Assembly: GCA_003132145.1 (NCBI GenBank)
Contig: PKWU01000033.1
Span: 1 to 64,000, forward strand
DNA: 64,000 bases
Direction of reading: 5' to 3'
Source: Granulicella sp.
GTDB lineage: Bacteria > Acidobacteriota > Terriglobia > Terriglobales > Acidobacteriaceae
A program made the translations under genes and the position numbers. The notes beneath the pieces were generated by a model that made no database searches, was not told the origin of the DNA, and saw only the letters and a program-made list of their open reading frames with translations. Positions 30,515-33,200 of the stretch are shown piece after piece. The first letter of the stretch is position 1. Each line of letters begins with the position of its first letter.

Positions 30515-30940
30515 CTAATCCGGGAACCGATCTTCGTACTGGTCCAGGAAATCCGCCGGACTAATGATATACACCCCCGAGACGCGAGTGCCGTAGAGGC
30601 GCCCAAAGTGGCTCTTGTCGCCAGTGATGAGATAGTCCACGCTGGCCGCAATCGCCGCCGCAAGAATCGGCTGATCCTTGGCTATCAGCGCGACATTGGG
30701 TGGAATCAAGCGTACGTCCGCGTCGCTGACGATCTGAGTGCGTAGCAGCAGGCTCGCCAGTCGCGTGTCGTGGCCGGCAAATCTGACGTTCCGCGTAACT
30801 TCGCCGACGACGTACTGCGAGACCACCGGCACAACTCCAGGAATCCGCCAGAAATTCTGGAAGCGGGAGCCTTCATCCAACGAGGCAGAGAACAGGACAT
30901 TTGAATCGAGGAAGACGCGCAGGCCAACAAAATTAGGCAA
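30515..30940 (-). CDS. PIN-domain toxin (VapC-like)
   Basis: A 141-aa putative RNase toxin with the PIN acidic set: FLDSN (Asp12), VGEVTRN (Glu47), AKDQPILAAAIAA (Asp89) and YLITGDKSHF (Asp108). It belongs to the "toxin component, PIN family" branch. It overlaps the upstream AbrB-type gene by 8 nt, consistent with a toxin-antitoxin operon. Confidence 0.85.
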   Translation of the reverse strand: MPNFVGLRVFLDSNVLFSASLDEGSRFQNFWRIPGVVPVVSQYVVGEVTRNVRFAGHDTRLASLLLRTQIVSDADVRLIPPNVALIAKDQPILAAAIAASVDYLITGDKSHFGRLYGTRVSGVYIISPADFLDQYEDRFPD

Positions 30941-31310
30941 TGCGCTTCTCCTTCAGTAATTCCTCGCGTCTCCGCCTGCGGCGCGCCTCCCATTCAGCGT
31001 TGGTCGGCAACCCCTCCCGGTGATCCGGCTCCAAACCCTTGACCTGCGTCGGATCGACACCCAGTTCCAACACGTGCGGAAGATTTTCATCCCACTCTTC
31101 CTTCGTCATCGAGTTGATCAGGATGAAGTACGCCGTCTCTTCCGGCGACCAGACCTCCGGCTCGTAGACGAACGCAGGCCGGATGCGAATCTCGCCGTCC
31201 CTGGCCTCGGTTACCAGCAGCGATCCATCCCCCAGCCCAAACTGCTTGCGCAGCTTCACCGGCAACACAATTGTGCCGCGCTTGCCCATCTTGATCGTAG
31301 TCGTCGCCAT
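30933..31310 (-). CDS. AbrB/MazE-type antitoxin
   Basis: A 125-aa protein with an N-terminal SpoVT-AbrB swapped-hairpin DNA-binding domain (about 1-45: TTIKMGKRGTIVLPVKLRKQ, then FGLGDGSLLVTEARDGEIRI). The C-terminal part is acidic then strongly basic (EWEARRRRRREELLKEK) and should contact the PIN toxin. GGAAG precedes the ATG. A repeat-rich site at 31321-31343 immediately upstream is a likely operator. Confidence 0.83.
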   Translation of the reverse strand: MATTTIKMGKRGTIVLPVKLRKQFGLGDGSLLVTEARDGEIRIRPAFVYEPEVWSPEETAYFILINSMTKEEWDENLPHVLELGVDPTQVKGLEPDHREGLPTNAEWEARRRRRREELLKEKRIA

Positions 31311-31436: not shown

Positions 31437-32441
31437 TTAATTGAGAAACATCATGCGGTAGGACGTGTCTCGTTGCATGGGCTGGAAGCCGGCGTCGCGG
31501 ATGATGCGGCGGAGGTCTTCTTCGCTAGGGTGGTTTGCGGCGGCTGCATTCTGCCCAAAACCAGCCTTTGCGTCGATTCCCTGCGGCGTCACCGAGCCTG
31601 CGTCGTTGGCGCCGAAACGCAGGCCCATCTGGAGCACTTTCAGCCCTTGCGCAGCGCCGCTCCACTGGATGTTCTGGATGTTGTCGAGGAAGACACGCGC
31701 GGTCGCCAGCGTTTTCAGTTGCTCGACCGCGGTCACGGCATCCAGTTCGCGACCGCTTGCGACCTCGGTAGCCACGGGGACGAAGGCTGTGAATCCGCCC
31801 GTCTCCTCCTGCAGTTGGCGGATTGCGGCAAGCGTGTCGACGCGCTGCTGCAGCGTCTCACCCGCGCCGAATCGCAGCGTCGCAACGGTGCGCATTCCCA
31901 GCCTGTGCGCCGCGCGATGCACCGCAATCCACTCGGCTGTGCTGCAACATCTGGGGCTGCCCTGTGCCTGTGTGTCTTCGCTTGCGATCGAGTCCAAGCC
32001 CGCGTCGCGGAGGCGTGCGATCGTCTCGCGCAGGCCCAGCCCGCAGCCGTTTGCGAGCGACAGAATCTCCGCCGCCGAGAGAGTCTCGATCCACAGCGAA
32101 GGGAAGCGCTGGCGGACGCCGCGCAAGAGTCCCTCGAACCACTCCATATCGCTGCTCTTCAACGCGCAGCCAACTCCGCTGACCAGACGCACGCCGGTCG
32201 AGCCCAGCTCGATGGTCTCGCGGATCGCGTCAAACAGGCGGTGCGCGCACCCGACGGCCGGATGATTCCCCTCGCGTGTGCCGCCGCCCATCACGGTTGC
32301 GCAGTCGATCGCAGCTTCGATGGCGTAGCTGACCACGCCCTCGGGATGCAGGCGGAGGCGCACGGCGTCGGCCTCCATGCCAATGCCGATCAGGTCGTTG
32401 CTGCGAAGGCAGTCGAGGGCCTCTTTGCGGCTGATTCCCAT
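31437..32441 (-). CDS. MqnC-like protein lacking the radical SAM cysteines
   Basis: A 334-aa protein that follows dehypoxanthine futalosine cyclase (MqnC) almost end to end: ISRKEALDCLRSNDL, RLHPEGVVSYAIEAA, LSAAEILSLANGCGLGLRET, RLRDAGLDSIASED, TAEWIAVHRAAHRLGMRTVA, LQEETGGFTAFVP, LATARVFLDNIQNIQW, GLRFGANDAGSV, IRDAGFQPMQRDTSYRM. MqnC closes the spiro ring in the futalosine route to menaquinone. Where MqnC has the cluster motif C-x3-C-x2-C after the NINYTN segment, this protein has IDCATVMGGGTREG (about 45-58): all three positions are Met, Thr and Gly. It should not bind the SAM cluster. It starts an operon-like arrangement with a VKOR gene (4 nt apart, VKOR upstream). It may be a regulator, a decoy subunit or a new enzyme; reading frame and length are intact. 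Confidence 0.8.
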   Translation of the reverse strand: MGISRKEALDCLRSNDLIGIGMEADAVRLRLHPEGVVSYAIEAAIDCATVMGGGTREGNHPAVGCAHRLFDAIRETIELGSTGVRLVSGVGCALKSSDMEWFEGLLRGVRQRFPSLWIETLSAAEILSLANGCGLGLRETIARLRDAGLDSIASEDTQAQGSPRCCSTAEWIAVHRAAHRLGMRTVATLRFGAGETLQQRVDTLAAIRQLQEETGGFTAFVPVATEVASGRELDAVTAVEQLKTLATARVFLDNIQNIQWSGAAQGLKVLQMGLRFGANDAGSVTPQGIDAKAGFGQNAAAANHPSEEDLRRIIRDAGFQPMQRDTSYRMMFLN

Positions 32442-32445
32442 GGCT

Positions 32446-32940
32446 CTATTCTACTGGCGCAGATGCCGCCGCGGCGTTCGACCCCGCGCGACGCTTCCGC
32501 CACTCCAGCAGCAGGGCCAGCGCGGAGAGCAGAAACAGCGCCGCGATGATTCCCTGCGACCAGACGCAGTAGATGCACCACTTCTCCAGAATGAAGGCCT
32601 CGATGTAGCTGAGGAAGGCGGCGAAGAAGAAGCCCACCTGCGCCAGTTCGAAGACGAGACCCATCCGTCCCATCAGCGCCAGGATCGCGATCACCGCATA
32701 CGCCGCAATGCCCAGGGCCGCCACTGGAACGTGCAGCCTGCTCGGCGGCACCGTGCCGTCGATCTCGTCCATCGTCTTGGGCAGAATCCACGAGAAGCGG
32801 CTGTGCCCCACGGCCCCGCAGTCCCAGTGTTCGCTGACGGCGCACGGCGGCGCCGCGTTGGGGTCCATCAGGTGGACGTGCAGCGCCATGGAACTGACCA
32901 CGATGCCCGCCACTGCCAGTAATGCAATCAGATATTTCAT
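32446..32940 (-). CDS. Vitamin K epoxide reductase family protein
   Basis: A 164-aa inner-membrane protein with four helices, begun at ATG 32940 (GGAG 5 nt upstream; 32949 is also possible). It keeps the four VKOR cysteines: loop pair C33 and C41 (PPCAVSEHWDCG) and the CxxC pair C122/C125 (EKWCIYCVWSQ), with the same spacings as human VKOR. Bacterial VKORs pass electrons from disulfide formation to quinones in place of DsbB. No fused thioredoxin domain, so it needs a separate DsbA-like partner. Its downstream neighbour is the MqnC-like gene, which ties the pair to quinone biology. Confidence 0.9.
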   Translation of the reverse strand: MKYLIALLAVAGIVVSSMALHVHLMDPNAAPPCAVSEHWDCGAVGHSRFSWILPKTMDEIDGTVPPSRLHVPVAALGIAAYAVIAILALMGRMGLVFELAQVGFFFAAFLSYIEAFILEKWCIYCVWSQGIIAALFLLSALALLLEWRKRRAGSNAAAASAPVE

Positions 32941-33200
32941 GCACTCCATCTTAGAGCATCTCTTCTGTTCCTACTCCCCCGAAAGAGTTTCAGGAGGGCC
33001 GCTTTTCTTGGGAAAAAACGGCGCGAGCAGTTCGCCTTCTTCATATACAACAGGAGAAATACGCAACTTTGAGTGCGGAAGGGTTCCCTATATTGCCGGT
33101 GAGACTGCTTCGATTCCCTCCAATAGGCTCATCTTTCCGCGCCTGGCTCCGATAAACCAATCTGGAACGCTGAAGCAAATTCTGAGTTGCAGGTCTTGCA

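Follow-up and report, generated by a model that had tools for sequence, protein, structure and literature searches.

A native mqnC orthologue lacking its radical SAM cluster cysteines is retained under purifying selection in Terriglobales genomes that carry a second MqnC-like protein

The window analysed here is the whole 64,000-nucleotide stretch of contig PKWU01000033.1 from Granulicella sp. (GCA_003132145.1). On its minus strand, positions 31437-32441 hold an open reading frame of 334 codons that begins with ATG and is free of internal stops; its product can be aligned with MqnC from end to end. The MqnC profile TIGR03699 matches residues 3-330 with 215.2 bits, which is under the curated cut-off of 428.1, and the Radical_SAM profile PF04055, which matched 23 places in the same genome, found none at 31437-32441. 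The CxxxCxxC motif that binds the cluster is absent from the protein. Residues 45-58 (IDCATVMGGGTREG; 32268-32309, minus strand) align with the start of the cluster loop of intact orthologues, all three cluster cysteines are missing relative to these orthologues, and Cys47 of the window protein falls in a column occupied by tyrosine. The original prediction from this DNA had described an MqnC-like protein of 334 residues that lost all three cluster cysteines, and the profile search and the alignment confirm this description. Other parts of the protein, all encoded on the minus strand, are better kept. Residues 1-39 (32325-32441), comprising the N-terminal helices and the start of strand 1, form the best-kept region among the 29 clusterless proteins described below. 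The FGAGE sequence at the top of strand 5 (residues 191-195; 31857-31871), the Glu of which is kept in 26 of the 29, presumably resembles the SAM adenine motif known from radical SAM enzymes. The alignment also defines a kept block in helix 7 and strand 8 (residues 265-284, QGLKVLQMGLRFGANDAGSV; 31590-31649) and, together with the profile match, a kept C-terminal block at the end of the CofH_C match (residues 307-334; 31440-31523).

The gene occupies the same position as the intact mqnC loci of the window's genus (g1), with a VKOR gene upstream and genes of the families fam1, fam2 and fam6 downstream. Judged from sequence and this matching gene order, it is the orthologue of the intact native mqnC, which we take to be the dehypoxanthinyl-futalosine cyclase gene of these Terriglobales. 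Just downstream, at 30515-31310, lies a pair of PIN-domain-like and AbrB-like genes, recognised by eye, that looks like a toxin-antitoxin pair; the corresponding families, fam24 and fam25, also occur downstream of mqnC in the genomes G006, G107 and G138. The rpoB match in the window's own assembly (G000:C48:44331-48698) is split across several frames, suggesting assembly indel errors, and single bases of the window gene therefore need some caution. The clusterless relatives are independent of the base quality of this assembly.

Four nucleotides upstream of the clusterless gene, at 32446-32949 on the same strand, we found a gene for a VKOR-family membrane protein (PF07884, 74.8 bits against a cut-off of 27.5), with four cysteines, a loop pair and those of WCIYC, read by eye. 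The open reading frame coordinates, the PF07884 match and this reading thus bear out a VKOR with four redox cysteines at the predicted distance of 4 nt. The proposal that the two genes make a functional pair did not hold when 57 loci were compared. VKOR was present upstream on the same strand at 23 of the 29 clusterless and at 14 of the 28 intact loci; within g1 it was found at every locus (23/23 clusterless, 12/12 intact), and outside g1 at 0/6 clusterless and 2/16 intact loci. The stretches available at VKOR-less loci reached 5.4-6.0 kb upstream, except for two intact loci with 632 and 2857 nt. Because VKOR is present in g1 whatever the cluster state and at none of the six clusterless loci outside it, we regard the linkage as a genus-level gene order and rejected VKOR as a functional partner. 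VKOR directly adjoins mqnC in the window, in L041, in L042 and in G040. At most g1 loci, those of G016 and G006 among them, the two genes are separated by one for fam4, a conserved protein of about 127 residues, and none was called between VKOR and mqnC in the window. The adjoining VKOR and the purifying selection acting on a gene whose ancestral cofactor is gone would suit reuse of the old fold for a new catalytic activity that has nothing to do with menaquinone (vitamin K2), or a quinone-sensing unit formed with VKOR. We consider such a gain of function very unlikely, as VKOR was not found around any of the six clusterless loci outside g1, and recurrence of the clusterless form in several lineages, if accepted, better fits a role that existed before. 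A quinone-sensing pocket is likewise unlikely given the decay of the catalytic face, including most of its SAM and cluster sites.

The clusterless form recurs well beyond the window. Among 150 genomes of the order, 135 gave a match at E <= 1e-20, from which we left out G060 and G100 with matches only of MqnE strength, leaving 133 with an orthologue of the native MqnC (MqnC1); gene order around the loci was taken from gene calls by a simple custom script. The cluster region could be read from the sequence in all 133 genomes, 29 without and 104 with the motif. All 29 clusterless frames are open and encode 266-334 residues, the gene of G082 having shrunk internally to 266 residues. Among the carriers with a name are two Granulicella sp. 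MAGs, bog_405 and bog_404, whose proteins share 72 and 68% identity with the window protein, and Edaphobacter lichenicola M8UP22 and M8UP30. Nei-Gojobori estimates of omega were 0.067-0.304 in 15 hand-picked close clusterless pairs (0.27-0.30 in the window's own subclade) and 0.010-0.078 in 12 hand-picked intact pairs. The constraint on the clusterless gene is below that on the enzyme, yet far from neutral. With neither a broken frame nor a neutral substitution pattern, these genes are not pseudogenes; the loss of catalytic residues under purifying selection is that of a pseudoenzyme. The predicted retention of an intact frame instead of decay is thus upheld, and sequencing error or local decay is ruled out by the recurrence of the form in 28 other sampled genomes with open frames and purifying selection. 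The original prediction had also held that intact homologues at the same locus would imply such error or decay; these homologues exist, and they point to recurrent cluster loss, not to sequencing error. A constraint at the DNA level as the cause of the conserved N terminus was rejected as well, since fewer synonymous differences in the first 40 codons occur in several intact pairs as well as in clusterless ones and are therefore not specific.

As the original prediction had advised, we looked for a cluster-bearing MqnC elsewhere in the window's genome, and one was found. This protein, here named MqnC2, scores 305.9 bits on TIGR03699 (cut-off 428) and is encoded less than 1 kb from a PF02621 gene with an MqnD-like sequence, the MqnD label being assigned by reading; the genome also has a separate intact MqnE (504.5 bits on TIGR03700). 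The window's family (f1) has strong MqnC2 matches, defined by E below 1e-150, in 31 of its 136 genomes, and a second family (f2) has them in 12 of its 14. MqnC2 accompanies all 29 clusterless genes and only two of the 104 intact ones, so that 102 intact genomes and no clusterless genome are without it (Fisher p 2.8e-27, a value that ignores relatedness). Relatedness was taken from an rpoB tree built for 60 selected genomes (29 clusterless, 28 intact and three of f2), in which seven independent pairs differ in MqnC2; cluster state follows the MqnC2 difference in five of them, runs opposite to it in none and is the same on both sides in two (sign test, p 0.0625). No further MqnC above the TIGR03699 cut-off was found in any of the 29 clusterless genomes. 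We infer that MqnC2 is their working cyclase, since these genomes are otherwise without one and yet keep MqnE (28/29, the exception being G043) and PF02621 genes (two in each of the 16 genomes tested). Its reaction is not certain, given a score of 306 bits against a cut-off of 428 and the presence of MqnC2 without an MqnE hit in f2. In a phylum sample of 297 genomes, where f2 is at best thinly represented, as none of the MqnC2 hits fall in that family, MqnC2 was found at E <= 1e-90 in 14, 13 of them in f1. This narrow spread suggests a gain by transfer; alternatively, the ancestor shared by f1 and f2 may already have had MqnC2, with losses afterwards. A tree of 38 MqnC2 proteins with two MqnC1 as outgroup joined the f1 sequences weakly (80/46) in an order unlike that of rpoB, which fits either repeated gain or ancestral presence with losses.

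The association with MqnC2 bears on two other explanations. The native gene could be slowly dying, under relaxed selection beside MqnC2 and without any role, merely not yet deleted. Longer branches and higher omega than in intact orthologues, as well as the shrinkage to 266 residues in G082, are in keeping with this, but the omega of 0.067-0.304 and the 29/29 open frames are not, nor is the conservation described below, which is sharply regional with its peak in the N-terminal part. Moreover, all 31 MqnC2-bearing f1 genomes have retained the native gene, clusterless in 29 and intact in two. We therefore regard a dying gene as quite unlikely. The co-occurrence in 29 of 29 genomes could also mean that the dead protein became a dedicated inactive subunit that MqnC2 needs in these genomes. 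This is distinctly unlikely, because 12 of the 14 f2 genomes have MqnC2 without any MqnC1 hit, and near relatives that lack MqnC2 have the kept face of the protein equally fixed in their intact MqnC.

Several observations suggest that the cluster was lost more than once. The rpoB tree implies nine changes of cluster state, at least five of them forced by starred branches. In g1, genes of fam5, VKOR and fam4 lie upstream of clusterless and intact mqnC alike. In g6, fam20 and fam21 are upstream in all three clusterless and in three of seven intact loci, where additional genes intervene, and fam23 is upstream of the clusterless genes in g7 and g21 and also of the intact genes in G059 and G108. 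A single clade of three clusterless and five intact g6 genes was not rejected by the AU test (p-AU 0.293). Taken together, the rpoB tree, the gene order and the AU test make losses in more than one lineage likely. The MqnC gene tree, in which all clusterless proteins fall into one clade (93/92, not starred) on branches longer than those of intact proteins, favours one loss and speaks against several, unless long branches attract each other. One loss followed by transfer or regain may be the alternative.

Which parts of the protein survived the loss was assessed at 259 sites that are conserved in at least 95% of 30 intact proteins. Seventy-nine of these sites persist in 90% or more of the 29 clusterless proteins, and 71 survive in no more than 35% of them. 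Placed on the predicted barrel, kept sites make up 20/25 in the N-terminal part, 15/25 in the bottom loops, 27/77 in the helices, 4/12 in the C-terminal part, 8/42 in the strands and 5/78 in the top loops. Leaving out the cluster loop itself, 5/58 top-loop sites are kept, which differs from the bottom loops with p 1.9e-6. The lost sites thus lie mainly on the catalytic face of the modelled barrel, while the N-terminal helices and the barrel bottom are best kept, although conservation of the bottom may reflect folding instead of an interface. In a search for substitute cluster ligands, no cysteine was found among the 79 kept sites. The predicted model of the clusterless protein adopts the radical SAM barrel fold (pLDDT 81.2, pTM 0.83), as is expected because intact MqnC rows stood in its alignment.

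The motifs of strands 2, 4 and 5, to which we assign radical SAM roles by assumption, have fared differently. The strand-5 FGxGE motif is kept, with its two Gly in 29/29 and 27/29 and its Glu in 26/29 proteins, as is the Gln-Gly after strand 7 (28/29 and 29/29), and one Gly each of the strand-2 QGG and strand-4 PGGGAE motifs survives in 19/29 and 24/29. These remnants would suit a pseudoenzyme that still binds a ligand, as a carrier or sensor of a nucleoside-type compound such as a futalosine intermediate, 5'-deoxyadenosine or a fragment of SAM. However, Gly100 (intact numbering) is kept in about 3/29 and Gly163, Gly164 and Glu166 in about 2/29, and with only five of 78 top-loop sites kept we find a ligand-binding role unlikely.

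Two genomes, G114 and G066, carry an intact MqnC beside MqnC2 and can be compared at 82 lost-type and 79 kept-type sites, which were defined without these two. The intact MqnC of G114 has changed at 14 of the 82 lost-type sites and that of G066 at 10, and neither at any of the 79 kept-type sites. Other intact rows have at most one lost-type change in 27 of 28 cases, the exception being the distant G140 with 20 lost-type and one kept-type changes. The split is therefore already visible in the two genomes with both genes. Across 65 named intact loci, the G114 gene included, there were 334 lost-type and 172 kept-type changes; they were divided about evenly at moderately distant loci, and lost-type changes prevail at roughly the ten most distant ones as well, so that the split partly reflects the general speed of the sites.

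The distribution of pathway genes offers a hint at what the dead protein might contact. MqnC1 and MqnE are both present in 129 of 136 f1 genomes, and hits to both are absent from all 14 f2 genomes (seven of which are less than 90% complete), from G046 and, apart from a separate operon, from G060. The agreement is imperfect: G100 has MqnE without MqnC1, and G004, G043, G064 and G134 have MqnC1 without a strong MqnE match, G043 having a clusterless gene and no MqnE hit. This co-occurrence is suggestive of contact between the dead protein and pathway enzymes. The f2 genomes (G001, G003, G005, G007, G009, G013 and others) carry MqnC2 in 12 of 14 and a pair of PF02621 genes in six of six tested, and they appear to operate the futalosine pathway with no MqnE that can be recognised. 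The separate run in G060 (L351:6549-10398) comprises four genes, two CofH-family and two MqnA-/MqnD-like by eye, in a genome that gave no match to a native MqnC1.

The reading that we prefer, at a probability of roughly 45% for the whole of it, is that the native mqnC has turned into a pseudoenzyme while MqnC2 carries out the cyclisation and the dead protein lives on as a scaffold or subunit. MqnC2, acquired by transfer or else inherited and lost in other lineages, would perform the cyclisation, and its presence would have released the catalytic face of the native MqnC from selection. The native MqnC might have had a second, non-catalytic role before the loss, possibly seated in the N-terminal helices and the barrel bottom. 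Such a role could most plausibly be a contact with other enzymes of the futalosine pathway, MqnE being the leading candidate, and might be why the dead protein was retained as scaffold or subunit.

An extension of the pseudoenzyme reading, which we put forward only tentatively, is that the futalosine enzymes form an obligate complex, in which the structural role of MqnC is separable and its catalytic half has repeatedly been discarded beside a second MqnC, with MqnE perhaps following. That MqnE may take the same route is suggested by G064, in which no intact MqnE was found and a clusterless MqnE-like gene is kept. This gene (L350:4136-5068, 310 residues) was observed beside an intact MqnC and no strong MqnE match; it keeps the N-terminal MqnE block, and a third, weaker match also occurs in G064.

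The clusterless gene resembles a separation-of-function experiment done by nature, probably more than once, in which a menaquinone enzyme has lost catalysis and is yet retained, and a hidden non-catalytic role of MqnC thereby becomes directly testable. It also means that annotating menaquinone synthesis from homology to MqnC gives dead orthologues a wrong label and misses MqnC2, the probable working enzyme. Among the matches listed in a literature search of titles and abstract openings, no clusterless MqnC or MqnE appeared, and one may still be in print.

The closest known system is MqnC itself, the cyclic dehypoxanthinyl futalosine synthase of TIGR03699, to which the window protein is tied by an orthologous gene, gene order and the N- and C-terminal blocks, and from which it differs in lacking the cluster cysteines and most residues of the strand-2 and strand-4 motifs (215 vs 428 bits). 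The model also matches the fold of the aminofutalosine synthase MqnE (PDB 6xi9, 6xig), with Z 34.9 and r.m.s.d. 3.3 over 313 residues for 6xi9 from an alignment that held intact MqnC rows. The two proteins are 24% identical; MqnE has the cluster motif, and the window's genome keeps its own intact MqnE. Pseudoenzymes such as iRhoms and FLIP(L), as far as titles and abstract openings describe them, resemble the clusterless MqnC as retained homologues without catalytic residues. In contrast to these, the clusterless MqnC is an orthologue at the native locus instead of a duplicate, has apparently arisen repeatedly, and goes together with a second, diverged member of its own enzyme family. Against this background, the clusterless MqnC is a real pseudoenzyme derived from a native-locus orthologue, which has probably arisen several times and whose occurrence is coupled to a second enzyme from its family.
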